Of a DNA stretch of 64,000 nucleotides, positions 19,949 through 59,591 are shown piece after piece. The notes under the pieces were generated by a model. The model was not told the origin of the DNA and did not search any database. It was given only the letters and a program-made list of their open reading frames with translations. Each line of letters opens with the position of its first letter. Position 1 is the stretch's first letter. Source of the stretch: a virus; the IMG/VR virus record IMGVR_UViG_3300010430_000020, positions 1-64,000 of that record; one strand, written 5' to 3'. A program made the position numbers and the translations under genes.

Positions 19949-20086
19949 CTATAGGCCGATAAATTTGTCTAGGAGCACATCAGAATACTTCCACCAAACG
20001 GCGGCGAGTCCCAAACCAATACCGATTGCAGCCGCCAAGCGCATTGTAAGGCGCACGGGCTTAGGTTTTCTGGTAGATTCGGTCAT
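19949..20086 (-). CDS. 45-aa membrane microprotein
   Basis: ATG at 20086 with GAGGAG nine bases upstream. Basic N-terminus (TRKPKPVRL) and one membrane helix (LAAAIGIGLGLAAVWW). A late-type CATAAATA lies 33 bases before the start. Confidence 0.6.
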   Translation of the reverse strand: MTESTRKPKPVRLTMRLAAAIGIGLGLAAVWWKYSDVLLDKFIGL

Positions 20087-20118
20087 GCTATTCTCCTCGA
20101 TAAAATATGGTTCACACC

Positions 20119-20126
20119 TATTTATG
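20119..20126 (-). promoter_or_regulatory. Candidate T4-type late promoter
   Basis: CATAAATA on the minus strand, 7 of 8 to the T4 late consensus TATAAATA, 33 bases before the microprotein start at 20086. An imperfect hairpin (AAATAGGT with ACCATATTT) follows it. Confidence 0.45.
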
Positions 20127-20130
20127 GAAA

Positions 20131-20346
20131 TCAGTGCTTTGTGAACTCATTATCGGGGATTACATAGTGTACACTATAGACGTATTTTCTATTATAGTCT
20201 GTTATTCGCCCTTTGAGTTCTTCCAGCCGATCATAAACATCATCATCGACCCCCGAACCCATCTCATATAACTCATTGACCTCATCTCTTAGGTCTAGGT
20301 ACTCCTCCAACAAGGCTTGGTATTCCAGAGCTTTTTGATTGCTCAT
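20131..20346 (-). CDS. Hypothetical coiled-coil protein, 71 aa
   Basis: Mostly helical with a heptad-like run (YQALLEEYLDLRDEVNELYEM and RLEELKGRITDY), then a strand-like tail. Start overlaps the preceding small basic ORF (ATGA). Function unknown. Confidence 0.6.
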   Translation of the reverse strand: MSNQKALEYQALLEEYLDLRDEVNELYEMGSGVDDDVYDRLEELKGRITDYNRKYVYSVHYVIPDNEFTKH

Positions 20347-20456
20347 TTCTTATTTCTTTTTCTCCTCCATCGTGCCAACCGCTTTTTGCTTCCAACTTTC
20401 CTGCGCCCGGATCGGGGTCTATTTTTATGGGGGTGTGGCGATGTACTATCCTCCAA
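20343..20456 (-). CDS. Possible 37-aa very basic protein, TTG start
   Basis: The frame codes for a tail rich in Arg and Lys (HKNRPRSGRRKVGSKKRLA) and ends in an ATGA overlap with the next gene, which argues for coding. No ATG is available; TTG at 20456 is the only visible start and it lacks a good ribosome site. Resembles small basic proteins of marine T4-like phages. Confidence 0.35.
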   Translation of the reverse strand: MEDSTSPHPHKNRPRSGRRKVGSKKRLARWRRKRNKK

Positions 20457-20506
20457 TTACAAAGCTGCCATGCAACTTTTTTGCTTCACTCAAATATGCA
20501 GGGGCA

Positions 20507-20647
20507 TTATTCAACATCACTCCCTTGCTCTAGATATACTTTATCCATTTTTTTCTCCAGGTCTTCGATGCGGTTCTCAAGCACGAAACCCAATACAAAT
20601 ATTACCAACAGCGTTCCGAAAAACGCTGCCCAACCTGTTCTAGTCAT
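20507..20647 (-). CDS. 46-aa membrane microprotein
   Basis: ATG at 20647 overlaps the deaminase stop (ATGA). Hydrophobic WAAFFGTLLVIFVLGFVL, then a charged coiled-coil-like tail (ENRIEDLEKKMDKVYLE). Probably a type II membrane peptide. Confidence 0.55.
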   Translation of the reverse strand: MTRTGWAAFFGTLLVIFVLGFVLENRIEDLEKKMDKVYLEQGSDVE

Positions 20648-21054
20648 AGCATTTCATACCCTTCATTATCTAGCGTGTAGAACACATTCTCGATTCCGAA
20701 TGTGCAAATGGCCCGCTGACACCCCTCACAGGGCCGGGCTAGTCCTGATATCTTCCTGGCTCGTCCTCCATCCTCCCACTTCATCCTGGCGACATACAGC
20801 TCTGCCTTGCGCAGTAAAACTATGTCTGTGTATTTAAGGGCGTTTTTAATGGCATCGATCTCAGCATGAAGGTATATACAGTCTCTGTGTTTGCCGAATC
20901 GTGCCTGGAATGGGTGGGTTTTATAGCTATTGTGCCCGAGAGCTATCAGACTGTGACGTAGATATATCGCCGCCGCAATTTGCGTTCTGTATACCGGCGG
21001 TGAGTGACTTGCTACGTCACATAGGTCTGACAATCTCTGGTCTATCAAGTCCAT
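20644..21054 (-). CDS. Deoxycytidylate/cytidine deaminase-like protein
   Basis: 136 residues. H63-A-E65 and P108-C-E-G-C112 form the zinc-binding HAE and PCxxC motifs of the deaminase fold; E65 is the proton shuttle. Length and surroundings (MazG, NrdJ) fit a dCMP deaminase feeding dUMP for dTMP synthesis, but a nucleoside or RNA deaminase cannot be excluded without the substrate-loop comparison. Confidence 0.75.
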   Translation of the reverse strand: MDLIDQRLSDLCDVASHSPPVYRTQIAAAIYLRHSLIALGHNSYKTHPFQARFGKHRDCIYLHAEIDAIKNALKYTDIVLLRKAELYVARMKWEDGGRARKISGLARPCEGCQRAICTFGIENVFYTLDNEGYEML

Positions 21055-21160
21055 GAACTTTGTTTTTTGCCTCTGTGGCCCGCTCGATAATTGATGCCAT
21101 TAGCACCGCATATGCAAACAGACCAAAAACTAAGCCGATCATGAATATAGCTTCTTTCAT
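21017..21160 (-). CDS. 47-aa membrane microprotein
   Basis: ATG at 21160 overlaps the upstream stop (TGATG). One hydrophobic helix (IFMIGLVFGLFAYAVLMASII) and a basic C-terminal part that overlaps the deaminase start by 38 bases. Confidence 0.5.
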   Translation of the reverse strand: MKEAIFMIGLVFGLFAYAVLMASIIERATEAKNKVHGLDRPEIVRPM

Positions 21161-21360
21161 CACAAGGAAATCCCAAAATGCAGCATGGCTGCTAGCAGTC
21201 CACCTATAGCCAACAAGATAAAAGTGAGCGTTATCGTAACCCCGATATCTTCCTTATCTCGTATGTATCTATTATATTTCTTATAGGCTTCAAACTCCTT
21301 GTGGAGTTTTGATACTTGCTGTTCTAGCTCATGTTCCCGTTGTGTCTTCTTTGTGTCCAT
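21160..21360 (-). CDS. 66-aa coiled-coil plus membrane protein
   Basis: N-terminal heptads (ELEQQVSKLHKEFEAYKKY) then a C-terminal membrane helix (ITLTFILLAIGGLLAAML). Tail-anchored topology. Coupled to its neighbours by overlapping codons. Confidence 0.6.
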   Translation of the reverse strand: MDTKKTQREHELEQQVSKLHKEFEAYKKYNRYIRDKEDIGVTITLTFILLAIGGLLAAMLHFGISL

Positions 21361-21748
21361 TTTTAAATAACTCCCCTAAATCTGGGGGCCGGTAATTGGC
21401 CGACTTTTGGACTTTACCATAACTATTGTAGATGGGTTTACCATCATCATCAAGTTTGCTCATATTACTCTCATGAATTAATTCAAATGCGCGATCTAAA
21501 TCGACGCCCATAGTAACCCCAGTGCCGTACACAACATACAGCAGATCAGTTAATTCTTTCGCGATCTGATCAGGATCGCCGCGTTCCATAGCTTCCATAA
21601 CTTCGTGATACTCTTCATGAATAAGCCGCAGACGAAGAGGAAAATCACCGCTATAAGGATTACTAGCATCAAAACTATCTCGATGGCTAAGTCCAAAAGC
21701 TTCATGAAACTCCCGTACCTTCTCGTAGTTACTTTTTCTTTTTTCCAT
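21329..21748 (-). CDS. MazG-like nucleotide pyrophosphohydrolase
   Basis: 139 residues from the ATG at 21748; an ATG at 21787 in frame is an alternative and neither has a strong ribosome site. The all-alpha MazG/HisE pattern is present: LIHEEYHEVMEAM (EExxE) followed by KELTDLLYVVYGTGVTMGVDLDRAF (the ExxD metal site). Such enzymes hydrolyse (d)NTPs, or (p)ppGpp in the phage hypothesis. Confidence 0.8.
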   Translation of the reverse strand: MEKRKSNYEKVREFHEAFGLSHRDSFDASNPYSGDFPLRLRLIHEEYHEVMEAMERGDPDQIAKELTDLLYVVYGTGVTMGVDLDRAFELIHESNMSKLDDDGKPIYNSYGKVQKSANYRPPDLGELFKNGHKEDTTGT

Positions 21749-21956
21749 TCTGTCGCGCTTCCCAATGTTCGCATCTGAAGAACTCATTTACTACTTTTGG
21801 ATACCAATGTCCCTTGACCTGTTCTTGATTATGGCACAGGCCAGTTTCTTGTAGTTCTGAGAAGAATGAGTATTTGCAATTTAAGCAATACTCTTCATCT
21901 TTTGCATCTGTTTTGGATGTCTCAATAAGATCATCCACAATGTCTTTTGTTGCCAT
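21729..21956 (-). CDS. Small Cys-rich putative zinc protein, 75 aa
   Basis: CLNCKYS, then CHNQEQ and CEHW: four cysteines spaced C-x2-C...C...C, a plausible zinc site. Basic C-terminus (RQNGKKKK). Start set at the ATG at 21956. Function unknown. Confidence 0.6.
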   Translation of the reverse strand: MATKDIVDDLIETSKTDAKDEEYCLNCKYSFFSELQETGLCHNQEQVKGHWYPKVVNEFFRCEHWEARQNGKKKK

Positions 21957-21987
21957 CAAACCTGATGTGTTACTTCGTGTCCATTAT

Positions 21988-22119
21988 TTAGACACCGAAC
22001 GCTCTGAGTAACAGAAACAGGATTATCAAGCACACAAAAAGCAATACATGATTGTGGAAGTCTCGCGGGCCTTCTGGGCGTTTGAACTGATCCCAGAAGT
22101 TTTTCTGATTACGTAACAT
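21988..22119 (-). CDS. 43-aa membrane microprotein
   Basis: ATG at 22119. Polar first half (NQKNFWDQFKRPEGPRDF), hydrophobic second half (VLLFVCLIILFLLLRAFGV). Start has only a modest GAGGG ribosome site. Confidence 0.5.
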   Translation of the reverse strand: MLRNQKNFWDQFKRPEGPRDFHNHVLLFVCLIILFLLLRAFGV

Positions 22120-22130
22120 TCTTTACCCTC

Positions 22131-22268
22131 TTATATCAGGCGGGCCGCATATATACACATACCCCAGAATATCACTGCAAAGTACAATACCACCAGGGTT
22201 ATGCCTATTTTAGTCAGTAGCCATAGCAAATTGCCTAATTTTTGCCAGCCGGTCCAATCACTCGCCAT
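22131..22268 (-). CDS. 45-aa membrane microprotein
   Basis: ATG at 22268 behind a strong GGAGGAGTGAG ribosome site. Contains LLWLLTKIGITLVVLYFAVIF as a membrane helix. First gene after the promoter at 22298-22326, so it heads the minus-strand cluster. Confidence 0.6.
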   Translation of the reverse strand: MASDWTGWQKLGNLLWLLTKIGITLVVLYFAVIFWGMCIYAARLI

Positions 22269-22297
22269 CTCACTCCTCCATAATATACGGACCCATT

Positions 22298-22326
22298 TGT
22301 CTACCCTAAAATTTTGGCCTTGTCAA
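22298..22326 (-). promoter_or_regulatory. Putative promoter for the microprotein cluster
   Basis: Minus strand TTGACA (22321-22326), 17 bases, TAGACA (22298-22303; weak -10). Lies in the divergent gap with the plus-strand lipoprotein gene. Confidence 0.4.
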
Positions 22327-22389
22327 TACCACTCACCGGCCTCCTAACACTAAATATAGTATATATTTCATATAGTTAGGAGAGAATTC

Positions 22390-23067
22390 ATGAAAAAACT
22401 TCTACTAGTTCTAGCTGCCACCGCTACACTAGTGGGTTGTAGTGATTGGACCGAACGCGGCTACTGGGACTGGAATCGAGAACGCGACAAAACACGCTGG
22501 GAACTCGAAAAAGATTCGTACCTACGCAACAAATCCGACAAACCCACTGTTGCGCTGCGGGATATTGCCAGTGTTTACGAGGACTTCAATCTCGTCATGC
22601 CAAATGGTAACCGTATTCGGGTGTGTTCTGCCTATGGGTGTACACACAAACAGGTATACAGAATATCCGCTGATACGCTCAGGAAGGCCAAAAGCTACTT
22701 CTCCGGTAGTTGGACAGCCAGCGGCGAGAGAAGCGGCCTGGAGAAGGCTCTACAGCACATTGAGACGGTCATGGGACCAGCTACTAACACTGCCGAAGAC
22801 GCTCAGGGCGGTCCTCTCTTTGGTAATGGGAATTCTGGTCAGATGAATCATAGAGATGAGGCACTGAACACCACATCCATCCTGATGGTTATGTTCCGGT
22901 ACGGACTAATCCGTTACCACGACCTCGAAGCTCCAATGTGGGTTGGCGGGACATTCTATCCGATCCTGCGTGATCGTAGCAATGGTAAGAGATATGGAAT
23001 TGATACTGGCTATCGCTCCAGCGGTGGCGAGGTCAAGATTTTTGCCGTGGAAGATGGCGCGCCGTAA
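22390..23067 (+). CDS. Lipoprotein, isolated plus-strand gene
   Basis: 225 residues. Signal peptide LLLVLAATATLVGC with a lipobox (LVGC), so Cys17 is the predicted lipidated residue. The mature part (CSAYGCTHKQVYRI, ALNTTSILMVMFRYGLIRYHDLEAP, YGIDTGYR) resembles a secreted family of Alphaproteobacteria with an NTTxxLxxxxxxGLxRxHxxExP core; the Cys-Asp pair before NTT in my memory of those bacterial proteins is HRDEA here. Start has TAGGAGAG. It stands alone on the plus strand, a typical moron position. Role might be superinfection exclusion; inferred. Confidence 0.8.
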   Translation: MKKLLLVLAATATLVGCSDWTERGYWDWNRERDKTRWELEKDSYLRNKSDKPTVALRDIASVYEDFNLVMPNGNRIRVCSAYGCTHKQVYRISADTLRKAKSYFSGSWTASGERSGLEKALQHIETVMGPATNTAEDAQGGPLFGNGNSGQMNHRDEALNTTSILMVMFRYGLIRYHDLEAPMWVGGTFYPILRDRSNGKRYGIDTGYRSSGGEVKIFAVEDGAP

Positions 23068-23446
23068 CTTTCACAGCAATCCAGGAATTATACCACTCTT
23101 CACTTAACAACACATCGTTTTCAAATTGGAACTTCGCCTCATAATAAGATGCCTCCCCAAGGGTCTTACAGAGGCGGAGTATTTCCCGTTTGAAATTACC
23201 TGCGCCTTGGCGCTCCACATCTTCACAAAGGAGGTTGTTTGAACCATAATAGGTTTCCCAGTCCGATGGACTTTGGACTTTTCTTTTTCGGGATTTACCT
23301 TTTAATGGTGGCTTGGTTCTTAATTTTGTAAAGCGTTTTTTACCAATATATTTGCGTCCATCATCTAGATTCGTGATCAGGTACACAAATGCCTTGTGGT
23401 CACCGATGTCGCTCGCCTGAAATTCCTTGCCTTGATATAGCCACAT
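23033..23446 (-). CDS. GIY-YIG-type putative endonuclease
   Basis: 137 residues. FVYLITNLDDGRKYIGKKRF near residues 20-39 is the GIY-YIG signature (here VYL...KYIGK); W-x-T-Y-Y-G-S-N (66-72) and REIL-RLC-x6-ASYYEAKFQ contain the Arg and Glu expected in the fold. Such ORFs recur in marine T4-like phages and resemble Seg-type enzymes, though without a clear DNA-binding tail. Its leader contains a late promoter inside a hairpin (23451-23486). The 3' end overlaps the lipoprotein gene by 35 bases. Confidence 0.75.
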   Translation of the reverse strand: MWLYQGKEFQASDIGDHKAFVYLITNLDDGRKYIGKKRFTKLRTKPPLKGKSRKRKVQSPSDWETYYGSNNLLCEDVERQGAGNFKREILRLCKTLGEASYYEAKFQFENDVLLSEEWYNSWIAVKVTARHLPRQKS

Positions 23447-23450
23447 AGTA

Positions 23451-23486
23451 AAATACCCCTAGAATGAACGCCTAGAGGTATTTATA
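23451..23486 (-). promoter_or_regulatory. Late promoter inside an RBS-sequestering hairpin
   Basis: TATAAATA (23479-23486) is an exact T4-type late promoter. AAATACCTCTAG (23472-23483) pairs with CTAGGGGTATTT (23451-23462): 12 base pairs with one G-U and a 9-base loop. The 3' arm contains AGGGG, the ribosome site of the gene at 23446. A transcript starting about 6 bases after TATAAATA would lack almost all of the 5' arm. Confidence 0.75.
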
Positions 23487-23552
23487 CGTATTACTACTAT
23501 TTTGCTGACTTGGTTAAAAATAGTAGTAACGCGATTGGAGCGGGGTTTACTG

Positions 23553-23816
23553 TCAACAGGCTATCTCCATAGTTGTATGAACCATATTCACCGGATCATC
23601 CATCGGAAAATGGATATTGTGGGTCTCCTTATCCGTCCTGATATAAATCCTCACCATCCTATTCGTCATATCATAGTAGTGCAAGGTCTTGATCACCTCT
23701 GCATCATTATTACTCAGGTTCTTCAGATATCTCATTATGAAGGTTTCGAAGCGGCGGGCATCAAATCCACCATCAAGCTGCTTCTCGAAATCCTTCTTGA
23801 TCTTCTGGATATTCAT
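23553..23816 (-). CDS. Hypothetical protein, 87 aa
   Basis: Starts MNIQKIKKDFEKQL at 23816 (an in-frame ATG at 23840 is less likely, lacking a ribosome site). Soluble, alpha/beta looking, with a C-terminal strand (RIYIRTDKETHNIHF). Overlaps the upstream membrane gene by 44 bases. Confidence 0.6.
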   Translation of the reverse strand: MNIQKIKKDFEKQLDGGFDARRFETFIMRYLKNLSNNDAEVIKTLHYYDMTNRMVRIYIRTDKETHNIHFPMDDPVNMVHTTMEIAC

Positions 23817-24054
23817 TTTGGTGTGTCTCCATATATTCAAGTAGTTGTTTGCTAAACATCCAGTTTACGGTAATACCTAATGGCCACCCATAGGCCGCAA
23901 ACAATAGTAACATATATGCCAGCAGACGTGATGACATACTAAAGCTCATTAGGATGCGCAAAGTTTTGTTCTGTAGATGTTCAAATATATTGAGCAGTCT
24001 AATGAATATAACTGTAGAAACTATGATGTAAAGCGTCACTAAAACTGAGATCAT
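23773..24054 (-). CDS. Small membrane protein, two helices, 93 aa
   Basis: Two hydrophobic segments (VLVTLYIIVSTVIFIRLLNIF and LLAYMLLLFAAYGWPLGITV) joined by a basic loop, then an acidic tail. The hairpin topology would suit a holin-like protein, but nothing else supports that. ATGA overlap with the upstream gene. Confidence 0.6.
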   Translation of the reverse strand: MISVLVTLYIIVSTVIFIRLLNIFEHLQNKTLRILMSFSMSSRLLAYMLLLFAAYGWPLGITVNWMFSKQLLEYMETHQNEYPEDQEGFREAA

Positions 24055-24305
24055 TCTTCCCCGAAATCTTCATCCTCAACAATGTCATCATAGAGTTCGT
24101 CGCTGTAGTAGCGCTTGTCTATGATGTTATCAAGCGCTTCGGATTCGCCATAGCAGTCATCAACATAGATATCGATATCGTAGTCCTCAAAGACATTCAG
24201 TAGATCATCATATAATAATTCTCGATTTTCAGCGGGCACATTCTTTTCCACGGCTTGAATAATTTCGTGGAATATGCCGCTCTCTCCAGTAGGTTCTTTC
24301 TCCAT
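24051..24305 (-). CDS. Very acidic hypothetical protein, 84 aa
   Basis: More than a third of residues are D or E (DDLLNVFEDYDIDIYVDD, DDIVEDEDFGEE). Such acidic phage proteins often mimic DNA or bind host DNA-binding proteins; no family is recognised. Lies directly downstream of NrdJ with a GGAG-type site. Confidence 0.65.
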   Translation of the reverse strand: MEKEPTGESGIFHEIIQAVEKNVPAENRELLYDDLLNVFEDYDIDIYVDDCYGESEALDNIIDKRYYSDELYDDIVEDEDFGEE

Positions 24306-24315
24306 TGGTTACTCC

Positions 24316-26208
24316 TTATGCTTCGCATCCCGTTGCAGCTGTACATGCCAAAGTTTGAGCGCCCTCCACATTATCTTCGTTCTCGATCAGTGCTCCCCAA
24401 TCGACATCACTGGGCATATCTTTCATCATTGCATCATACTCTTTCTTATCAATCTCCTCGTATGGTGCCTGCCTATATGTCCCGCCATCATAGGGAAGGA
24501 ATGCGACACCAGATAGCTCATCAAAATGTTTCCAGACCCAGGCCCCAACCATTGGCCATTCGTGCTCATGTACGGAAACCGTAACACTTGGTTTGTGTTC
24601 ACACCAATTTCTTTGATATACAAGCCACAAATTCAGGTGATCGATAGCATCGATCTGTTTCCTGGTAGTTGCAACCTCCGGTGCCTTCTGAGGGAATGAA
24701 AAAACAACATTCTGTGGGTTCATCACATCAGGTTCAAATGGTACACCGGCATCAATCATGTGCTGTGTCAGCGGGTCTTTAATGTCATTGCGAACTCTAC
24801 GTATATAGTATTTGGCGTATCGTGGGTGGATGCCCGATGCAGCATTAACTAGCTGTGATACGGTCCCGGATGGCTTCACACAGGTAATTGCCGCCGATGC
24901 AGGAATATCTAATTCATCTGCCCATTTGATATTGGTCTTGATCGCAAAGTCGCGTAGATTACTAAGGTTCTCTGGTAGTTCTTTACTTCTGTGATTGTTC
25001 AGTTGTTTGTTGTCATAGATACCCGTCAGGGACACACCCAGCAGGCGTTCTTCCTCGGTGTTACGCTTCCAGATTTTCCGAAGATATGGGAAATTGGTTA
25101 ATGTGCTCTGGAATGTTCCAAGGATAGTTGCCAATTCGACCTTCTCCATCAGGTCTTTCCAGTCATCTTCGGCACGCACCACAACTTCCGTCAAATTACA
25201 GAATTGTTGTGGACGGAGTATTATTTCAGAGCATGGGTTGGTTCCGAATTCGTGGTTGGGATCGCGGCGGCCCAGCTTCTCGCAAATATTGATAGATGCT
25301 TCTCGATTGAATAGCCCGCGCTCGCCGCTCTTAGAATTATAGAGGGCTAGCCACTCCTCCATAAAAATACCAACATCAGGCTTTTCTGTATAACAGGCGC
25401 TGTTGTTGGATAGTGATCGCTGTGGATTTTGTTCCCACCATGCCCCGCTCTTGGCGTGCCTCATACGATCATCAGACAGATTGCTGAGGCTGATCATGGC
25501 CGATCTACGCACTCCCCCCACCACAATGGTCTCGCCCACCTTACACATCAAATCATGAGCTTCCAGAGAGGTTAGCTTACGCCCGGCGGCTTCTTTGAAG
25601 ATATGTACCGTGAACTTGAATAACTCATCCAGAGGACCAGGACCGGATGATCTACCACCAAATGTTTTGAGTCTGGCACCAGCAGGGCGCAACCGGCTCA
25701 AGTCCCACTGAGGTATCTCACCCGAGTAAAGGAGCGCAATTAACATCCGCAAAGATTTTGACCAACCTTCTTTCGAGTCCTTGACAACAATGGTTGTCTC
25801 GCACGGGAATAGCTGATCAGGAACTTCTGGCAATTTGTTGACATACGGACGCTCAACGGAAAAGCCGACACCGGAGCCATTCATCAGGATGTGCATGGCC
25901 TCATCAAAAGCCTTGACATCATCAACCGGAAGGTAAGAACAATTATAACCAGCTGTGTTATCGCGCGCCAGGGCCTTACCAGCAGTCATTAGAGACCGCA
26001 TCGAGGGCATCACATCAAAATTAGTAATGGCAGCATGGAGTTTGGTATAGAGATTATCGGGGAGTTTGTAGCCAAAATTCGCTTCGAGGTGCAACCGCAT
26101 AAACTGCATGTATCGCTCGGTAGTTTCATTCCAGTGTTCTCGTCGTTTCTCTTCATCCACAAATCGCGCATACCGAGATTTATGAATAAATTGGCTATAC
26201 AAATCCAT
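24316..26208 (-). CDS. nrdJ: Class II (B12-dependent) ribonucleoside-triphosphate reductase
   Basis: 630 residues, matching monomeric class II reductases: NCSYLPVDDVKAFDEAM with the first active-site Cys, VGFSVERP, the GGRSSGPGPL loop, GTNPCSEIILRPQQFCNLTEV with the radical Cys and E, and the C-terminal ITCVKPSGTVSQL region. The C-terminus ends CTAATGCEA, a likely redox Cys pair. It reduces NTPs using adenosylcobalamin, so the host must supply B12. A single gene replaces nrdA/nrdB. Start at 26208 is an ATG. Confidence 0.9.
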   Translation of the reverse strand: MDLYSQFIHKSRYARFVDEEKRREHWNETTERYMQFMRLHLEANFGYKLPDNLYTKLHAAITNFDVMPSMRSLMTAGKALARDNTAGYNCSYLPVDDVKAFDEAMHILMNGSGVGFSVERPYVNKLPEVPDQLFPCETTIVVKDSKEGWSKSLRMLIALLYSGEIPQWDLSRLRPAGARLKTFGGRSSGPGPLDELFKFTVHIFKEAAGRKLTSLEAHDLMCKVGETIVVGGVRRSAMISLSNLSDDRMRHAKSGAWWEQNPQRSLSNNSACYTEKPDVGIFMEEWLALYNSKSGERGLFNREASINICEKLGRRDPNHEFGTNPCSEIILRPQQFCNLTEVVVRAEDDWKDLMEKVELATILGTFQSTLTNFPYLRKIWKRNTEEERLLGVSLTGIYDNKQLNNHRSKELPENLSNLRDFAIKTNIKWADELDIPASAAITCVKPSGTVSQLVNAASGIHPRYAKYYIRRVRNDIKDPLTQHMIDAGVPFEPDVMNPQNVVFSFPQKAPEVATTRKQIDAIDHLNLWLVYQRNWCEHKPSVTVSVHEHEWPMVGAWVWKHFDELSGVAFLPYDGGTYRQAPYEEIDKKEYDAMMKDMPSDVDWGALIENEDNVEGAQTLACTAATGCEA

Positions 26209-26219
26209 TGAGCTACCTC

Positions 26220-26552
26220 TTATTTTTCGAAATTGTTTTCTTTGAGTATCTTACTCAGGTGCCTGTTACCATCCAACCAAACATCTGCCAGATATCTCCC
26301 GTATTTTCCTTTTTTGTCCTTCTGTGTTCTGAGCACAACTTCGGTACCTTCGGGCAGCAATTCTTGTACAAATGCCTTTGCCTCCTGTGCTCTCTTTCGT
26401 TCGTTTAAATCTTTGGAACGCAACTCTGGGGTATCAATATCCAGTAGGCGCACTTTTTCCTTATGAAGAACCGTGCTGAACCCCATATCAATATCAACTT
26501 CCAGAGTATCACCATCGATAACCCTGCGCACGACCGCTCGGTACTCATACAT
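26220..26552 (-). CDS. Staphylococcal nuclease (thermonuclease)-like protein
   Basis: 110 residues covering the SNase fold: VIDGDTLEVDI, VRLLDIDTPELR with the catalytic Arg and Glu, and KGKYGRYLADV with the second Arg. It lacks a signal peptide, so acts inside the cell. Shorter than the 150-residue enzyme but all three catalytic positions appear intact. Probably a non-specific nuclease; overlaps the kinase-like gene by 8 bases. Confidence 0.85.
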   Translation of the reverse strand: MYEYRAVVRRVIDGDTLEVDIDMGFSTVLHKEKVRLLDIDTPELRSKDLNERKRAQEAKAFVQELLPEGTEVVLRTQKDKKGKYGRYLADVWLDGNRHLSKILKENNFEK

Positions 26553-27123
26553 CTGATCGATAATCCTCAGAGATGTTTGTTATTTCTTGAATGATTTCAG
26601 TAGTGGTACCATTACAAATGTAATGGTTTGGATCATATACTAGCAGGAGGTCCAGTATGGCCTTGTCTATTTCTTGTGATTCCTCAAGGGTATGAACTCT
26701 GCCGTTTGATGTGTGGTATTTATTGTTGCGCTGGATGTAATAGTTGATATTGTTGAATTGTGCGAAGGTTTCTAGGAAAAACTGTTCCTGCAAATAGATA
26801 TAATCCTCATCGAAAAACTTTTTTTCTGTGCGTTTGAGGAAAAATTTTAGGTATACTGCATTGAGCAACAGCGGGCTATCGCAGATAACAAAATCTACCT
26901 TGTCCAATAATCTGTAGATGCGCCGATACTGCTCGGCAAACAATTTGATCTGGTTGTGCAGTAGGGAGACATTGCCTTCCCAGGTCACATCCTTGGCATA
27001 CTCTGATGCCAACTCACAATTAATACCATCCTGCTTCATCAATGAATAGATGCCGGTTGCAATCGTGGATTTGCCGGTTCCTGGGCCTCCTATGATGTTG
27101 ATGACTTGAGTCTTAGTGTCCAT
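26545..27123 (-). CDS. P-loop kinase-like ATPase (AAA_28/NadR type)
   Basis: 192 residues. Walker A GGPGTGKST at 12-20, a DSPLLL (VICDSPLLLNAV) motif like that of deoxynucleoside or nicotinamide-riboside kinases, and a lid region with RNNKYHTSNGR. The gene sits among nucleotide-metabolism genes, which favours a nucleotide or cofactor kinase; the substrate cannot be assigned. Confidence 0.7.
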   Translation of the reverse strand: MDTKTQVINIIGGPGTGKSTIATGIYSLMKQDGINCELASEYAKDVTWEGNVSLLHNQIKLFAEQYRRIYRLLDKVDFVICDSPLLLNAVYLKFFLKRTEKKFFDEDYIYLQEQFFLETFAQFNNINYYIQRNNKYHTSNGRVHTLEESQEIDKAILDLLLVYDPNHYICNGTTTEIIQEITNISEDYRSDV

Positions 27124-27301
27124 TGTAATAACCCTTCATATGTCTTGTAGTTTGGTCTACCATCTGCCGTTGGGCCGTAATCCCAATCGGTTCAAATACT
27201 TGCTTCCAAATATCAAAAGTGACCTTACCCTCGACATCGTAGTTTATTTTCGTTGCGATGCTATTCCATACATCTAGTTTAAATTTATGTGGATTATTCA
27301 T
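27113..27301 (-). CDS. Hypothetical protein, 62 aa
   Basis: Start at 27301 behind AAGGAAACGGA; the frame is open to 27403 but that would lie wholly in the upstream gene. Begins MNNPHKFKLDVWNSIATK; soluble. Function unknown. Confidence 0.55.
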   Translation of the reverse strand: MNNPHKFKLDVWNSIATKINYDVEGKVTFDIWKQVFEPIGITAQRQMVDQTTRHMKGYYNGH

Positions 27302-27491
27302 TCCGTTTCCTTGCGGTCTTACACACCACTTCTCCTTCATGGATAGAATAATCCACCATACCGTCTTCGCCCATACAGACCGAGATAATATAGGTATCAT
27401 CACCCAAAGATGATGATCCTTTTATGCAGCCGATCATAGGCATTCTTTCCCCGTTAATGAACAAAACTTCATCGTTACTTTTATATTTCAT
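27294..27491 (-). CDS. Hypothetical protein, 65 aa
   Basis: Starts MKYKSNDEVLFINGERMPM at 27491 behind GGAGAAAGGT. Small strand-rich protein with SVCMGEDGMVDYSIHEGEVV, like SH3-type barrels. Overlaps the primase 3' end by 11 bases. Confidence 0.55.
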   Translation of the reverse strand: MKYKSNDEVLFINGERMPMIGCIKGSSSLGDDTYIISVCMGEDGMVDYSIHEGEVVCKTARKRNE

Positions 27492-28473
27492 GTACCTTTC
27501 TCCACTCATTCAGTTTTACCTTGGCTGATAATCCTCGATACAAGTTCTCCCATATGATCTCTTCTGGATTCAGTCCGACCAACACCATATCATTGATGTC
27601 CTTCTGTTCGATATAATCCGGCCAGATACAGACTCGATAGTACTCATCGATCTTCTTTTCATACTTCTTGATAATCTCTACATTTCTGGGCTCATTATCA
27701 TACACAATGATCGCATTATCAGCATCCATCGAATGGAAATCCGCGCCTGCCATCGCGCAGGCATTCGACAAGAACATTGCATCGAATGGCCCCTCGGTGA
27801 TGAAATACGGTTTGTTGAAGTCGCACTTATCCCAATTCCAAAGCTTGGGTTGATCCTCATCGAGCATGATCGTGATGTAACGCAGCTCTGTAGTATATAG
27901 AGCGCGGCCCTGGAAGCCGAATAGAGTCCCCCCAGGCTTGAAGAATGGGATCACAACCCGCGCATCTGACTTGCCAACGTACTCAAACTTTCCTGGGAAA
28001 ACTGAATTAGTGAAGCCCCGGAAGTTGTCTGTGTATCTCAGATCGTTATACCACTTCGATGGTATCTTGCGCCGGTCTAGCCACTGGCGGGCATGGTGGT
28101 GCTGATCCAGGGAATTGATGGTAGGGAGGGTATCCAGAGCATTCAGATTGGTATGTACCGGCTCCGGCTCAAGAATATCTGCAGTAATCTTGATGTTATC
28201 ATGATCAACCAGAGACTCTTTTACATACTCCTGGTACATGCCATAGTCGAGGTCTTTCAGGAAATACTTGAGAGTCGTGGATTTGCCACAGTTGTGGCAG
28301 TAGTAGAAGAACTTGCCCTTGTTCTCAATCAGGTAGCCGCGCGCCTTGCGCGTATTCGTTTCCGAATCGCCACAGTACCAGCACGAGAAGTTGAAGAGTC
28401 TGGCAGATTTTTTCTTGAAATTGCGGAGATATGTACGGGTAAGTTCAGCGTACTTAGAGTCTATATATGACAT
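27481..28473 (-). CDS. 61: DNA primase (T4 gp61-like)
   Basis: 330 residues. N-terminal zinc ribbon with two CxxC pairs (CWYCGDSETNTRKARG and YYCHNCGKS). TOPRIM region with the acidic EGPFDAMFLSNACAMAG and later YDNEPRN, matching phage gp61/DnaG. Makes RNA primers for lagging-strand synthesis with gp41. Starts at an ATG with a modest ribosome site. Confidence 0.92.
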   Translation of the reverse strand: MSYIDSKYAELTRTYLRNFKKKSARLFNFSCWYCGDSETNTRKARGYLIENKGKFFYYCHNCGKSTTLKYFLKDLDYGMYQEYVKESLVDHDNIKITADILEPEPVHTNLNALDTLPTINSLDQHHHARQWLDRRKIPSKWYNDLRYTDNFRGFTNSVFPGKFEYVGKSDARVVIPFFKPGGTLFGFQGRALYTTELRYITIMLDEDQPKLWNWDKCDFNKPYFITEGPFDAMFLSNACAMAGADFHSMDADNAIIVYDNEPRNVEIIKKYEKKIDEYYRVCIWPDYIEQKDINDMVLVGLNPEEIIWENLYRGLSAKVKLNEWRKVHEI

Positions 28474-28497
28474 AACAAACTGGGTAGCACTAAAGCA

Positions 28498-28845
28498 TTA
28501 TGGAGTCAACTGGCTCTTCAATTTCTTGTTCTTATCTAGCTGTGACATCAAGCGCTTCAGTGTACGTGTCTTTTTTTCCTTCTTGTCCTTCAACCCGAGT
28601 AGGGGAGGAGCATAATCAACCTCACCACCGCCGCCATTACCATCCGTTCCAGAAGACCCCATTTGGTTAGCCGGGCCAGTGCCTTCATCTTCCCTGACGT
28701 ACTGTTCCCTCAATTTCTTGTTCTTTTCCTTCCAGGCGGCGGCATATAGCACCTTCTCCCAGCGATCACCATACTGCTCTTTAAAGCCCGACTTGCGGTC
28801 TCTGATCCAATCTTCCATTCCTGGCGGGGCGGTCTCTTTGATCAT
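28498..28845 (-). CDS. Hypothetical protein with APPGMEDWI motif, 115 aa
   Basis: The N-terminus contains APPGMEDWIRDRKSGFKEQYGDRWEKVLYAAAW, a short motif seen in several phage structural or regulatory proteins (GDxxxxVLYxxAW). The rest is low-complexity with a glycine-rich patch and a Lys-rich tail. Overlaps the next gene by 4 bases (ATGA). Confidence 0.65.
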   Translation of the reverse strand: MIKETAPPGMEDWIRDRKSGFKEQYGDRWEKVLYAAAWKEKNKKLREQYVREDEGTGPANQMGSSGTDGNGGGGEVDYAPPLLGLKDKKEKKTRTLKRLMSQLDKNKKLKSQLTP

Positions 28846-29234
28846 ATCTGTCGAAGCCTCTGTGCTATAGTATTATCGATAGGCCATTCATCTGTGTAAA
28901 TAATCTCCTCCTCATCAACATTGTACAGCATATCTGGCATGGAATTCAACAAGATCAAGAATGGAGTGATGTATTTAATTTGAGGACGCATCTTCAGGTA
29001 TAGTATTCGTGGTAGGTGGCGGGGACCGAATACATTGTATAACGTCATGACATGGTTAAGGATCAACTGTTCTCGTAACTCACCTCTTTGTTCATAACGA
29101 GTAATCAATTTTTTAATATACTTAATTCTGTTCAAGTCTTCCCTGAACTCCTCAATATCAATACATTGTGGATTGTCATAGTGTTTAGCGCAGTACAGGA
29201 AGTAGTTCTTGTGAGTAAGAGGTTCCAGTATCAT
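28842..29234 (-). CDS. Conserved T4-like phage protein, 130 aa
   Basis: Characteristic block NYFLYCAKHYDNPQCIDIEEF...RIKYIKKLITRYEQRGELREQLILNHVMTLYNVFG (positions across residues 9-70), which I recognise as a widespread unnamed T4-like protein. Helical, soluble. It lies beside virion-type genes, so a structural or assembly role is possible. Confidence 0.7.
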   Translation of the reverse strand: MILEPLTHKNYFLYCAKHYDNPQCIDIEEFREDLNRIKYIKKLITRYEQRGELREQLILNHVMTLYNVFGPRHLPRILYLKMRPQIKYITPFLILLNSMPDMLYNVDEEEIIYTDEWPIDNTIAQRLRQI

Positions 29235-29237
29235 CCA

Positions 29238-29543
29238 TTAAAAGGTTTCTAAAGTAATCCGTCTAATAGTATCATCTGCAATTGCAATATAGAGATAGTT
29301 ACCATCATACCAGATACGTCCTTTCGGCACAGTATCAGTAGATGTAGATGGTGTATTACTATTAACAGCAAATATCTGATTAGCACGAGCAACATTAACA
29401 GTTACGTTAGCAGCCGAGTTGTTAAAGAAATTTTGAATTGTACACTTTTCAGTATTCGACCCTGAGTTGGCCACGAGTACCACGAAATCGTTTGATGAAG
29501 GTGCAGTACACGCAACCAGCTCAGATATTTTTCTACTAGCCAT
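29238..29543 (-). CDS. Virion structural-type protein, 101 aa
   Basis: Begins MASRKISELVACTAPSSNDF and continues with short beta-rich, Asn/Thr-rich sequence, like the tail-fibre or head-decoration proteins of marine T4-like phages that start with KISELVxxxxPxxxD. Ends RRITLETF. Follows the larger structural protein directly. Confidence 0.65.
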   Translation of the reverse strand: MASRKISELVACTAPSSNDFVVLVANSGSNTEKCTIQNFFNNSAANVTVNVARANQIFAVNSNTPSTSTDTVPKGRIWYDGNYLYIAIADDTIRRITLETF

Positions 29544-29553
29544 TAGTTACCTA

Positions 29554-30393
29554 TTATGTATTAGGGAATGCTACGTCTTCATCATCACCACTGATTCCAC
29601 AAGCCACCAGAACCTCTGCCTGAACGCGACCTGCGCGACCACCAGTGCCTTTAGTGACGAGTACATGGCCGCTGTGAGCAACAGACTGGGCATCATTGAA
29701 TTTAGATGTAGTGATATTCACCAGAACATTAGCGCCCGTCTGATCACCCTCTGGGGTCAGCAAGAAGTTGCTGCTGCCTGGGCTTGCGGTATAACTTCCT
29801 TCGGTAGCCACCGAAAGTACTTGCGCACCCAACTCAACATTCAGAACCAAACTGGTACCAGTGCCCGTGACATTAGTTGTTGCTGGGTTAGCACTCGGCA
29901 CATCAGCAGAGTTAGCATATGAGCCCGGTTTGATGAGGACAATAGATTCAACATTGCCGGTAGCGTTTGCAGTCACCTGGAATGTTGCAGCGATACCTTC
30001 GCCTTCATCTAATGCAACAATATCACCGGTCGTATAATCCTGACCAGCGGCTGTGTTGACAGCATAGGTTGAGACTTGAACCGTTTCGACATTGATTACT
30101 GCATTGGTAGATGATGCGAGATTTGCCGTAAACTGGGTAGTTCCGTTTGATGTAATCAAAACACCAATACCCGCATTAGCGCCTGGAACAGCGCCAATAA
30201 TTTTGTATAGGTCGTATGTTGTTTCGTTATCGGCTACACCATAGGTACCAACTGTTGCACCAGTAACGAATGCGTCACCAGTATTGTTACCAAATAGCGC
30301 ATCACGGTTAGCACTATTGGCAGGCAGTTTTACACTAGTCGGTCCCCACAATACACTATTAGCAGCCGAGTCGTCGTTTTGCCATTGTGCCAT
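29554..30393 (-). CDS. Virion structural protein, 279 aa, beta-rich
   Basis: Rich in Gly, Ala, Thr, Val and Asn, almost no Lys, with repeats of strand-forming segments and the C-terminal VAHSGHVLVTKGTGGRAGRVQAEVLVA, a stretch I recall from marine T4-like virion proteins. No catalytic motif. Probably a head or fibre surface protein. Gene order with the basic proteins upstream is like the cyanophage arrangement. Confidence 0.65.
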   Translation of the reverse strand: MAQWQNDDSAANSVLWGPTSVKLPANSANRDALFGNNTGDAFVTGATVGTYGVADNETTYDLYKIIGAVPGANAGIGVLITSNGTTQFTANLASSTNAVINVETVQVSTYAVNTAAGQDYTTGDIVALDEGEGIAATFQVTANATGNVESIVLIKPGSYANSADVPSANPATTNVTGTGTSLVLNVELGAQVLSVATEGSYTASPGSSNFLLTPEGDQTGANVLVNITTSKFNDAQSVAHSGHVLVTKGTGGRAGRVQAEVLVACGISGDDEDVAFPNT

Positions 30394-43953: not shown

Positions 43954-44146
43954 TAGTTGTAATCTAATACAAAATTGTATATTCAACCCATACGATGGAG
44001 AAGGATTAGAACTTGTGTGTAAGACACATGGTCACAAATTCAAAATTATGGGGGAGTCAGGAAGTTTTGCGATAGAAATTCCTAAGAAATGTCCGGTGGC
44101 CGATCAGGTCAATGTTGTTCCGTTTCCTTGGAGAAAGGTTTCGTAA
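43946..44146 (+). CDS. Hypothetical early protein, 66 aa
   Basis: Begins MSDSCNLIQNCIFNPYDGEGL; four cysteines in all (C5, C11, C25, C49), possibly a metal site with HGHKF. Last gene of the plus-strand operon, followed by the bidirectional terminator. Confidence 0.6.
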   Translation: MSDSCNLIQNCIFNPYDGEGLELVCKTHGHKFKIMGESGSFAIEIPKKCPVADQVNVVPFPWRKVS

Positions 44147-44150
44147 AAAA

Positions 44151-44168
44151 GGGGGGCCGAAGCCCCCC
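44151..44168. terminator. Bidirectional UUCG-loop terminator
   Basis: GGGGGGC-CGAA-GCCCCCC on the plus strand; the minus-strand version has a UUCG loop and is followed by TTTTTT. It separates the plus-strand early operon from the converging Hsp20-repeat gene. Confidence 0.85.
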
Positions 44169-44185
44169 TTATGCCTTGTTAATAA

Positions 44186-47100
44186 CTAGGCTCCAGGTTT
44201 TTTGACCACTACGATAGGCTTGTCACCAACAGGCTCTGGTTCTGGCAAATCAGCCTCGACCACAGTCTCTACAGTTGGTTTTACCTTATCGATGGCTTTC
44301 TCGACAAGCTTGACTGGATCGAGACCCTTGGCCTTCACAGCTTCCACCACATCGGCTTCTACTGCCATAACGATATCGGCCTCGCCTGCTGGTGTCTCAA
44401 CCACTTCCAGCTTGGCCTCGGGAAGAATGTCTTCACTGGTATCCGTTAGGACCAGCTTATCACCTTCTTTCTCTAGCTCGACCAGCTGCGGTAAGACTTC
44501 CGGCATTTCTACCGTAACATCATCAACCACAACCTTTTCGAGAGGTGCTGTTACCGTTGCTTCCGGTAGCACTGGAACCGAGTCATTCGTCTCTAGGGCG
44601 GCCTTGACGACCTCCTCCAGGACAACACCCTTATCTTCCAATTCTGCCTTCACAGCAGGCTCTACAGCCAGCACAACGTCACTCATACCCTCATCCGTCT
44701 TGACCGGAATCAGCTCGACCTCATCGGCCTTCACTTCAACCGTGGCGTCTTCCAGGATAATGGCAGGGGCATCAGATGATGGCTTCTCATCTAGCTTAAC
44801 TTCTAGAAGCTGAGGAGCTTCCTCCGCCGCCAGGGTCACTTCGACCGTTGGTTTATCAGATGTCTCATCGATCAATAGAGTAGCTGGCTCCTTAGCGATT
44901 TCGTCTAGCTTTTCTACGACCTCCTCGACCTCCATAGCTTCAGCCATGTCTTCATCCTTGACTGTGGTGCTATCTGTTGGGACAACTTCCACATCAGCGA
45001 TGTTAACCGCCTTTTCTAAGACTTCGACTACATCTTCAACCGCAGCTTCTACTTCCTTATCAACCGCCACAATCAAGTCTGGCTGGCCTTCAGGAGTAAC
45101 AACTGCCACCAGCTCGGCATCCTCTGGAATGTCTTCTTTGACATCCACAAGATCGACACTGACGATTTCATTATTTGCAGGATCAGGATCGAGGACCGCT
45201 TCCACCACTTGAGGTAGGACTTCAGGAGTCGTGACCTCAACAGTATCCTTGGTCTCATCCATCTTATCAACCATTACCGTTACCGGCTCAACCTCTTCCT
45301 CTACTGCAGGAACTTCAGGGAGGGCATCATTGGTTTCGAGAGCGTCTTTTACAACTTCCTCGATGACCACACCTTCCGTCTCAAGCGCCTCTTTCTCAAT
45401 TGGGTCAATTGCGATAACAACGTCTGCCTTATCCTCATCGGTTTTGATGACCAGCAATTCCTTATTGTCTCCCACCTCAATTGTGGCATCCTCTACGACA
45501 ATAGATGGAATTTCCTTATTTGCCGGATTATCATCTAGCTTAACCGCTACCACCTGTGGGGACTCTTCTGCCGCCAGGGTCACTTCGACCGTTGGCTTAT
45601 CTGAATCCTTGTCCACAACAATAGTTGCAGGCTCCTTGGCGATTTCGTCTAGCTTTTCTACGACTGCCTCGACCTTAGAAGCTTCTTCAACCTTGGCTTC
45701 ATCGAGTACAGGGGCATCTACCAGGACATCTGCCTGATTGATTGCCTTCTCAACGACTTCGGCCAAATCTTTGACACCATCCTTTTTAAGCTCCTCGACA
45801 ACCTCTGGTTTGGCCACGACAACCATGTCTGGCTGGCCATCAGGGGTTACCACAGGCATCAACGCGCCATCAGCGGGGATATCCTCTGCAACAGGCTTTA
45901 ACTCCACTGCAGGCTCTTCCACGACGATTTCAGGGGCATCCTTTAGAACGACTTCCATAATAGGCTCAACGACATCTGGTAGAGTCATCTCAACCGTTGG
46001 TTTTTCGTCATCCGTTTTATCCACCAGGACTGTTACATCCTCGGGATGGATTTCGATTTCTTCCTTGGTCTCTTCATCGATAACAACCTTGGGCTCATCA
46101 ACCAGCTCAGGGGCATCAACGATTTCCTTGGCAACCTCTAGAAGATCAGTCTTGGCCTTTTCCAGGACTTCAACGACTTCTGGTGCTGCTGCGACCACAA
46201 CGTCTGATTTGCCTTCTTCAGTTTTGACCACCACCAGCTCGGCATCGTCTGACACCTCTACCATAGCATCCTCAACCTTTAGAGGAGGCATATCAGTTAC
46301 GGCATCTTTGTTCTCTTCATCAATCTTCAATTCGACAACAGGAACATCCTCTACGAGGTCTTTCTTGACTTCGAGAGTTTCTTTCTTGTCATCTTCTTTA
46401 TTAACGAGAACAATATCAGCCTTTTTCTCTTCGACTTCAGCAACTACTTCGGCCTTATCGGCTTCTTCTAGTTTGACTTCATCGACTGGCTCGGATGTTT
46501 TGACTTCTTCAACCACCTCTGCGGCGGCACTCTCTACAACACCCTTGACATCAATATCTTTGGCTTCAAGTTCGTCCTTCAGGACAGGATCAACAGCCAC
46601 GACCACATCTGGCTTGCCTTCCGGCATGACCACTGGTAGCAGTACTGCATCTTCCTTGATATCCTCAACCGTATCTTCAAGCTTTACTGCAGGAATATCA
46701 GCCTTTGTGGGCTTGTCATCCTTTTTCAATTCAACAACAGAAGGAATTTCCTTTGGTAGAGTCACCTCTACTGTGGGCTTATCGGCTTTTTCCTTATCAA
46801 CCAAGACAGTTTTCTTTTCTTCAGCCTTCTCGGTCTTTTCAGGGAGTTTGGGTGCGGCATCCAGAGCGTCAACGACTTCTTTAACTGTGTCAACAATATC
46901 TACTTTTGCCTCATCCAGGAGCTTCTTATCATCTTCCTTCAGCGCAACGACCACATCTGCTTTCCCAGCTTCCGTTTTCACGGGCAGGAGAACCACATCA
47001 TCTGAAACCTCGATGGTGGCATCTTTCAGCTCAACATCGATCTTGGAGTCGCCTTTTTTATCGACCTTGGCTTCAATGATCTGAGGCTTATTGTCGGGAG

Positions 47101-47983: not shown

Positions 47984-47996
47984 ATGAGGTCTCCTT

Positions 47997-48034
47997 TTTA
48001 CGCGCGTAAACGAGATGTGATGGTGTAAATTTAC
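47997..48034 (-). promoter_or_regulatory. Two palindromes in the leader of the Hsp20-repeat gene
   Basis: TTTACGCGCGTAAA (47997-48010, perfect 14 bases) lies just before the ribosome site, and GTAAATTTAC (48025-48034, perfect 10 bases) lies further upstream. They look like operator or RNA structures controlling this gene. Confidence 0.45.
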
Positions 48035-48047
48035 CATATATTTAGTA

Positions 48048-48069
48048 GGGGGTGGATTTCTCCACCCCC
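48048..48069 (-). terminator. Strong hairpin after the small Hsp20 gene
   Basis: GGGGGTGGA-TTTC-TCCACCCCC on the plus strand, a 9-base-pair stem. It follows the stop at 48079; on the minus strand it lacks a clear T-run, so termination may be partial. Confidence 0.55.
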
Positions 48070-48078
48070 GGTCATGCG

Positions 48079-48534
48079 TCACCGCTCCTCTTGCAGGAGT
48101 AATTTTTCATCATTGACATCGGTATCTGCCTCAAGATGTTTACCTATTGGTATCTGTCTTGGTTTTTTATGCTCGGGTATCTCTCTATCGAGCAAAATTT
48201 TCAATATTCCATCCTCTAAAGATACACCTATTATCTTCACATCCGGCGACAGGACAAATTGTCTCCTAAAAGAGCGCATTCCTATGCCTTTGTGCATATA
48301 TTGCTCGTTGTTCTCTGGATTATCCTTTTTACCGGATATCTTGAGTACATCCTCAGCAAATTCAACTGATAGATCAGACTCCTTGAAACCGGCGACCGCC
48401 AGCTCTAGTAATGTCTGATGTCCATCAAGTTTTAATATGTTGTATGGTGGGTAATTGGACTGGTTCGTGATGTTCTCGCGGTTCATTTCCGCAAATAGGC
48501 GATCTAATCCAACACTGTATGGTGTGTGCATCAT
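48079..48534 (-). CDS. Hsp20-type small heat-shock protein
   Basis: About 151 residues from 48534 (strong AAGGAGGAAGAA; ATG ATG). YPPYNILKLDGHQTLLELAVAG, SDLSVEFAEDVLKISGKK, YMHKGIGMRSFRRQFVLSPD match the alpha-crystallin domain and are closely similar to the N-terminus of the fusion protein downstream, so the two are paralogs. The frame extends to 48615 with an ATGA overlap, but that reading lies across the late promoter. Confidence 0.85.
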   Translation of the reverse strand: MMHTPYSVGLDRLFAEMNRENITNQSNYPPYNILKLDGHQTLLELAVAGFKESDLSVEFAEDVLKISGKKDNPENNEQYMHKGIGMRSFRRQFVLSPDVKIIGVSLEDGILKILLDREIPEHKKPRQIPIGKHLEADTDVNDEKLLLQEER

Positions 48535-48547
48535 TTCTTCCTCCTTC

Positions 48548-48611
48548 CAAAGCAAGGTTACATTATTGTTGCAGCCGCTATTGCGCACTGCACTCTTATT
48601 TATATGCTTTG
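48548..48611 (-). promoter_or_regulatory. Late promoter bracketed by an inverted repeat near the RBS
   Basis: TATAAATA (48597-48604, minus strand). CAAAGCA (48605-48611) just upstream of it can pair with TGCTTTG (48548-48554), which adjoins the ribosome site of the Hsp20 gene. The loop is 50 bases, so the pairing is weaker than at 23451. Confidence 0.5.
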
Positions 48612-58903: not shown

Positions 58904-59067
58904 TTACTAGCTCTATATTGATCCAGGGCCTTGCCGATCATTCGGTGGCAGTACTCCAGCATCATATACCTATTTTGTCGCGTATTCTTGTTCTGCTTGG
59001 TATCGAGCATATCCTCCATCCAACTACGAACCATAGCTGGCAGAACAGGATTCTTAACTTCGTTCAT
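58900..59067 (-). CDS. Small protein between gp55 and gp47, 55 aa
   Basis: ATG at 59067 overlaps the gp55 stop and its stop overlaps the gp47 start. MNEVKNPVLPAMVRSWMED begins an otherwise helical chain with CHRMIGKALDQYR. Reading frame supported by both overlaps. Function unknown. Confidence 0.6.
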   Translation of the reverse strand: MNEVKNPVLPAMVRSWMEDMLDTKQNKNTRQNRYMMLEYCHRMIGKALDQYRASK

Positions 59068-59591
59068 GTCTTCCCCTTAATGAATTTGTCTATACCCTGA
59101 CGCTCTTTCTCGCGCTTGGATTCCTTTTTCTTCCGTATAGACTCTTCATAACTTCTTATGACTTCATCCATCACATCATCCGTGGGAGAACCTGGGTAGT
59201 AATTAATGTTTTTGCTCATATTGAGCAGTTCTTCCTCAGCCATGTGCTTGCGATAGTTCTTATACTTCAGATAATTTTGTCTCTTCTCCCGGTCTATCCT
59301 TCTGATGAATGCATACCATGCAATGCGACTGAAATACCCAAAGGGGTTGTTGAATTTTGATGGGTCGTAATTGTCTACAGCGGCCAGACAGTTTTCTATC
59401 CCATCACTGACCATCTCGTCCTTATAGCTGTAGTTGTTGAAATTCCCTCGTGATGCAAGCTTTTGTGTTATCAGGAGAATACACTCTCCTATGTACTCCG
59501 GTACGCGAAGATCGTCAACTTGCTGCTTGGCTTTCTTATACTCTACAAGGGCCTCGTAGAGTTGCTTGTTGTTGACGTAATGTTGGGTCAT
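59064..59591 (-). CDS. 55: Late transcription sigma factor gp55
   Basis: 175 residues. GNFNNYSYKDEMVSDGIENCLAAVDNYDPSK and GYFSRIAWYAFIRRIDREKR are the region 2-like segments of T4 gp55. It directs host RNA polymerase to TATAAATA promoters such as 23479 and 48597. The C-terminal tail is highly charged; a T4-type clamp-binding motif is not obvious. Confidence 0.92.
   Translation of the reverse strand: MTQHYVNNKQLYEALVEYKKAKQQVDDLRVPEYIGECILLITQKLASRGNFNNYSYKDEMVSDGIENCLAAVDNYDPSKFNNPFGYFSRIAWYAFIRRIDREKRQNYLKYKNYRKHMAEEELLNMSKNINYYPGSPTDDVMDEVIRSYEESIRKKKESKREKERQGIDKFIKGKT

Follow-up and report, generated by a model that had tools for sequence, protein, structure and literature searches.

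A late promoter within a ribosome-site hairpin as a predicted two-state leader of a SegE-type nuclease gene in an uncultured T4-like virus

A SegE-type GIY-YIG nuclease gene in an uncultured virus is preceded by a hairpin whose 5' arm overlaps an exact T4-type late promoter octamer and whose 3' arm holds the ribosome site. We consider it very likely that this leader has two states and serves late-only expression of the nuclease, which is late gating of the T4 type. RNA reading through from upstream genes would carry both arms, and the resulting hairpin of 12-13 bp would bury AGGGG and leave the start silent. Initiation by gp55 polymerase at TATAAATA, within the 5' arm, would yield an RNA that begins at about 23473 and lacks 10 of the 12 bases of that arm, and this RNA is predicted to be open and translated. 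The mechanism would be one known in kind, with the SegE-type gene as a further T4-like case, and it provides a clean, testable copy of the classical T4 switch in an uncultured T4-like phage.

A wider proposal, to which we give slightly less than even credence, is that T4-like phages gate DNA-cutting and lysis enzymes late by leader architecture, and that such architectures have arisen repeatedly with unrelated arms and proteins, either with the promoter as the 5' arm of a start-hiding hairpin or with the late start placed on the AUG. The same proposal holds that in some lineages (represented by genome G001) many late structural genes would have leaders of just 0-4 nt, unlike in T4. The promoter-in-hairpin plan, with changing arms, occurs with SegE-type nucleases, an HNH endonuclease, resolvases unlike T4 endonuclease VII, lysozyme-like proteins and a neck protein, and its recurrence across such genes suggests that late-only translation has been selected for in the case of particular activities. 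For the specialist, the interest lies in the breadth across the SegE family and in the leaderless class.

Genomic setting and architecture of the element

The window, by which we mean the whole stretch of 64,000 nucleotides that was analysed, comes from an uncultured virus record of 79,148 bases. This record encodes a T4-like late sigma factor (phrog_234), DNA polymerase processivity factor, UvsY-like protein, tail tube and major head protein, and the virus appears from its sequence to be a phage of bacteria and kin of T4. DNA relatives of the window were found in the phage collection neither for positions 20000-30000 (megablast) nor for 44000-48700 (blastn).

The PF19835 domain spans residues 2-123 of the SegE-type protein, far above the curated cut-off (Table 1). 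A profile search found no separate DNA-binding domain in the protein, and no solved structure matched the SegE family profile at E 0.01. Relatives of the protein carry the label 'NAD synthetase' (phrog_447 in PHROGs and many phage records), apparently a wrong name that has been transferred. A plus-strand ORF with a lipoprotein-like start (22390-23067) converges on the SegE-type gene, the two sharing 35 bases at their 3' ends; this ORF is 77% conserved in locus L008, a relative described below.

Same-strand genes of nucleotide metabolism lie 5' of the SegE-type gene. Three small ORFs, none with a Pfam match above cut-off, lie between it and the ribonucleotide reductase gene, and the terminator list holds no minus-strand terminator-like site from that gene to 23446. 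The model assumes early read-through across 23530-23490, a stretch with a further inverted repeat, and this would be plausible. Just 5' of the promoter, at 23491-23529, is an A/T-rich inverted repeat whose 13-bp arms match perfectly; no other pair in the window's inverted-repeat list reaches 100% at the settings used.

Read directly, the minus strand across the element is TATAAATACCTCTAGGCGTTCATTCTAGGGGTATTTTACTATG, and the leader of the SegE-type gene is TATAAATACCTCTAGGCGTTCATTCTAGGGGTATTTTACT-ATG. The octamer, arms, AGGGG site and coordinates reported in an earlier note on this DNA all agree with this reading. Its claim that the promoter-overlapping arm pairs over 12 positions with the AGGGG arm is likewise borne out: all 12 positions pair, one of them as U-G, and folding agrees, adding a thirteenth pair (G-U) and leaving a loop of 7 nt. 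Two features of T4-type leaders with a late promoter in a ribosome-site hairpin are therefore found directly in the sequence, namely promoter consensus in the 5' arm (exact TATAAATA overlaps it) and a Shine-Dalgarno site in the 3' arm (AGGGG within CTAGGGGTATTT). The predicted late start is placed at 23473 because the late promoter consensus sits at -13 to -6 (PMC1524935; this article, PMC2988022 and PMC3014915 are cited from excerpts). A plus-strand hairpin was weaker (z -1.6) and was set aside.

Table 1. Features of the predicted two-state leader and related genes in the window
Feature	Position	Strand	Basis
Late promoter octamer TATAAATA	23479..23486	-	exact match; gp55 in record; octamer also 5' of major head gene; relatives
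Hairpin 5' arm AAATACCTCTAG, overlaps promoter	23472..23483	-	fold, pair counts
Hairpin 3' arm CTAGGGGTATTT, holds ribosome site	23451..23462	-	fold, pair counts
AGGGG Shine-Dalgarno-like site, 9 nt 5' of ATG	23456..23460	-	sequence
Predicted late transcription start	23473	-	inferred from octamer at -13 to -6 (PMC1524935)
SegE-type GIY-YIG gene, 137 aa, ATG at 23446	23033..23446	-	PF19835 SegE_GIY-YIG, 134.5 bits (cut-off 25); phrog_447 and homing-endonuclease PHROGs
Late sigma factor gp55	59064..59591	-	phrog_234, E 1.4e-49
Class II ribonucleotide reductase gene, upstream, same strand, possible read-through RNA source	24316..26208	-	PF02867, PF21995

Folding, octamer statistics and a T4-calibrated leader score

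For the 33-nt element the predicted folding energy is -14.0 kcal/mol (z -5.0), equalled by none of 200 shuffles, while RNA starting at 23473 folds to -4.0 kcal/mol (z +1.7). Among the 86 scored starts of the window (ATG starts with a Shine-Dalgarno-like motif, ORFs of 60 codons or more), that of the SegE-type gene is the most closed, with an opening cost of 16.2 kcal/mol against a median of 5.5. If the 13 bases that run from the octamer to -1 are included, the cost is 14.2 kcal/mol, against 2.7 if they are absent, and dropping the RNA 5' of the predicted late start lowers it by 11.4 kcal/mol. When arms were exchanged, none of the 18 other NATAAATA arms of the genome closed the SegE-type start as much, and only 5 of 1000 random 5-mers placed behind TATAAATA equalled the native closing.

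The window holds 4 copies of the octamer where 2.66 would be expected, and 28 of 100 shuffles have at least as many, so the octamer itself shows no enrichment. Its count was therefore dropped as promoter evidence, and the promoter is called from its position, the presence of gp55 and the relatives. The octamer also stands 5' of the record's major head gene, 38 nt before the ATG, and 5' of its Hsp20 gene, with no leader effect at either.

The leader score was defined as the opening cost of a start with minus without the upstream 13 bases, calculated for NATAAATA sites before a plausible start, with a threshold of 3 kcal/mol. In T4, 28 of 65 NATAAATA sites were assigned, rows being promoter sites of which some share a gene, and five of the 28 reach the threshold: 49 (11.7 kcal/mol), e (10.0), I-TevI (9.5), segB (5.8) and soc (3.7), as named in the annotation. 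A second promoter site of e scores 2.9. In the excerpt of PMC3014915, inhibitory structures are named for e, soc, 49 and I-TevI, and segB is given as implicated. In the window's record, 8 of 19 sites were assigned and only the SegE-type gene reaches the threshold, its 11.4 kcal/mol falling between e and 49; the other seven are all below 3 kcal/mol. Because all five flagged T4 sites are documented cases and the same score flags the window gene as strongly, the benchmark supports our interpretation. The score did not flag T4 I-TevII, I-TevIII, 25, 26 or 39, although these are named in the excerpt of PMC2988022, and so it is specific in the T4 test rather than complete. The hairpin of the SegE gene of genome G003 was also missed by the scan, because of its Shine-Dalgarno filter.

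Chance pairing between an A/T-rich promoter and an A/T-rich leader would be compatible with an octamer count near expectation. However, it is strongly disfavoured, and to our minds most improbable, in view of the shuffles, the random 5-mers, the covariation reported below and the fact that none of the seven other assigned sites in the genome shows such an effect.

Comparison with known systems

The earlier note had described the logic of T4 I-TevI recreated with a different GIY-YIG gene. The likeness holds, given that I-TevI of the T4 td intron is a GIY-YIG endonuclease with an upstream late promoter and a late RNA without part of the structure (PMC2988022, PMC3014915), and that the window gene scores 11.4 kcal/mol against its 9.5. 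I-TevI is intron-encoded, whereas the window gene is free-standing, belongs to the SegE family and encodes 137 aa. The element is not, however, restricted to genes for GIY-YIG proteins or other endonucleases. Nor is a GIY-YIG case of this sort new, since T4 segB, a free-standing GIY-YIG gene with a late promoter and ribosome-site structure, has already been reported with such an arrangement (PMC2988022); it has another sequence, scores 5.8 kcal/mol and has a hairpin that is implicated only (PMC3014915).

T4 e, 49 and soc also have a late promoter at the 5' strand of a structure that hides the ribosome site, with a 100-fold reduction cited for e (PMC3014915), but their products are lysozyme, endonuclease VII and an outer capsid protein. 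T4 segE also encodes a homing endonuclease, and exact TATAAATA stands 36 nt upstream of its ATG, followed by an A/U inverted stretch, but the gene shows no clear Shine-Dalgarno cover by eye and is absent from the five flagged sites. Finally, mobE of Aeh1 is a free-standing endonuclease gene with a late promoter in a hairpin that hides the ribosome site (PMC2988022), differing in that it encodes an HNH protein.

Recurrence among SegE-family relatives

The family sample comprised 314 loci (L007-L320), all matching the family profile, with some contigs present more than once. An assignable start was available for 284, which gave 179 distinct leaders; the 30 loci without a start and leaders shorter than 50 nt were left out. 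ATAAATA is the commonest 7-mer within 60 nt (48 of 179 leaders), and when weighted by 104 protein clusters it reaches 29.4 against 2.9 in 200 shuffle rounds (maximum 7.3). A late-like motif is found 20-45 nt upstream in 38 clusters, a class that includes every cluster with any such member, and 11-13 nt before the start codon in another 25. The remaining 41 of 104 have neither by the definition used, so the gate is not needed everywhere.

Of the 38 clusters with a motif 20-45 nt upstream, the 22 that have exact ATAAATA were scored; they include L007, which is nearly identical to the window (99.96%). In 20 of the 22, the promoter arm makes the start at least 3 kcal/mol more costly to open (median 6.5), and in 12 the native arm is more closing than every exchanged arm, where about one would be expected. 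Relatives of the SegE-type gene seem to have evolved the T4-style gate on many occasions, using different sequences.

Nine leaders near the window were compared. Of their helix cells 97% are paired, and at three pairs both sides have changed, with a covariation of 0.144 against 0.052 (0/500 shuffles; slid controls 0.000-0.044). Conservation through compensatory change, a further feature of T4-type leaders of this design, is therefore present in nine sequences. L008 is syntenic with the window and is 71-77% identical to it in DNA and 89% in protein; the element persists there with altered arms and loop, although none of the L008 ORFs matches the window's immediate upstream ORF. Folding models, covariation, diverged relatives and the T4-calibrated score all favour the earlier proposal that read-through RNA would be closed and late RNA open.

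The two-sided changes also bear on the idea that the inverted repeats are mainly protein sites, such as an operator through which the nuclease represses its own late promoter. I-TevI does so via an operator overlapping its late promoter (PMC2988022), and the perfect 13-bp repeat just 5' of the window promoter would suit such a role. A DNA site, however, explains neither the two-sided, RNA-type changes nor the G-U pair, and the 13-bp repeat was not seen in the stretch of L008 that was read. We judge it very unlikely that this is the main function of the repeats, while noting that an operator role for the 13-bp repeat is possible and would be compatible with the hairpin gate.

In a control set of 17 rows, L119 and L177 are SegE genes missed by the filter. 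Two of the other 15 reach 3 kcal/mol: L166 (HNH endonuclease) and L078, which has no family match and by eye resembles a protein matching a homing endonuclease PHROG. Leaders of named phages were available for five of eight by the start rule used (P-SSM4, P-SSM2 and S-SM1 gave none). The C48C1 leader has ATAGATA ending 5 nt before the ATG, and no promoter-hairpin was seen in the leaders of phiM12, phiN3, Melnitz-3 and P-HM2, the P-HM2 start being that of the annotated ORF, which may not be the family start.

The same element before other genes

A scan with the pattern ATAAATACC-N-GGTATTT-N-ATG yielded at least 126 matches, at least 94 of them with an ORF of 40 codons or more. As the pattern preselects hairpins and counts are among the matches listed, the family counts below are not rates. 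Among the matches listed, 93 ORFs of at least 50 codons fall into 35 families, and a single family accounts for 31 ORFs, its tested member being a head-tail adaptor (phrog_211). Outside this family, the proteins tested among the matches listed include Holliday-junction resolvases, both RuvC-like and RusA-like, and a homing endonuclease. Seven ORFs have a hit to the SegE profile, and further ones are lysozyme-like by eye. Unexpectedly, then, the same element appears to precede late genes that do not encode endonucleases. T4 gates its resolvase (49) and lysozyme (e) likewise.

The adaptor family raises the prospect that the hairpin works as an intrinsic terminator, stopping transcription from upstream at the late promoter, with ribosome-site hiding as a by-product. 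All 31 of its ORFs among the matches listed have the same or similar arms followed by a run of 6-8 T, and many of these elements have the window's arms around a GAAA loop. Only 4 of the 8 positions after the window stem are T, which falls short of a U-tract. Moreover, none of the 22 tested SegE clusters has a terminator-like tail (at most 5 T of 8), the window site is absent from the terminator list, and in several relatives the stem runs into the AUG without a T-run. For the SegE-type gene we consider termination unlikely to be the function of the hairpin, and retain late gating as the preferred reading.

Among the matches listed, the 31 ORFs of the head-tail adaptor family (including L329, L331 and L350) have a single element immediately upstream that unites a promoter with a terminator-like stem and a cover over the ribosome site. 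Elsewhere, a palindrome with a promoter match on both strands (L351:3839-3884, L377:3309-3353 and L400:6913-6957) has a SegE-type gene and a lysozyme-like gene diverging on either side.

Late starts on the start codon

A second architecture was found in the SegE family. The weighted number of clusters with ATA[AGT]ATA at exactly 12 nt ahead of the start codon is 15.9, whereas shuffles give 0.18 (maximum 1.5), and at this distance the predicted transcription start is the first base of the start codon. In 25 clusters the predicted late start is on or adjoining the AUG, which was unexpected. Such a placement would predict leaderless late mRNAs in some T4-like phages. A literature search for leaderless phage mRNA with TATAAATA returned no match, and one for leaderless mRNA and late promoters in T4-like phages matched 'leaderless' only in a reference title.

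In G001 (170,716 bases), ATAAATA occurs 29 times at 11-16 nt before the ATG of ORFs of at least 100 codons, whereas other 7-mers of the same letters average 5.8, the highest (26) being the one-base shift TAAATAA. At 11-16 nt the motif occurs 0 times in T4 and twice in P-SSM4; at 20-36 nt the counts are 22 and 12, respectively. It is predicted from these positions that the late mRNAs of these G001 genes are leaderless or have leaders of 1-4 nt. The G001 motif distances (L450-L458) peak at 12 and at 15-16 nt, and the genes concerned include those for baseplate, sheath-stabiliser, tail-tube and neck proteins. Of ten such G001 proteins tested, eight have PHROG matches, and in every one of these a tail or connector family ranks first or second.
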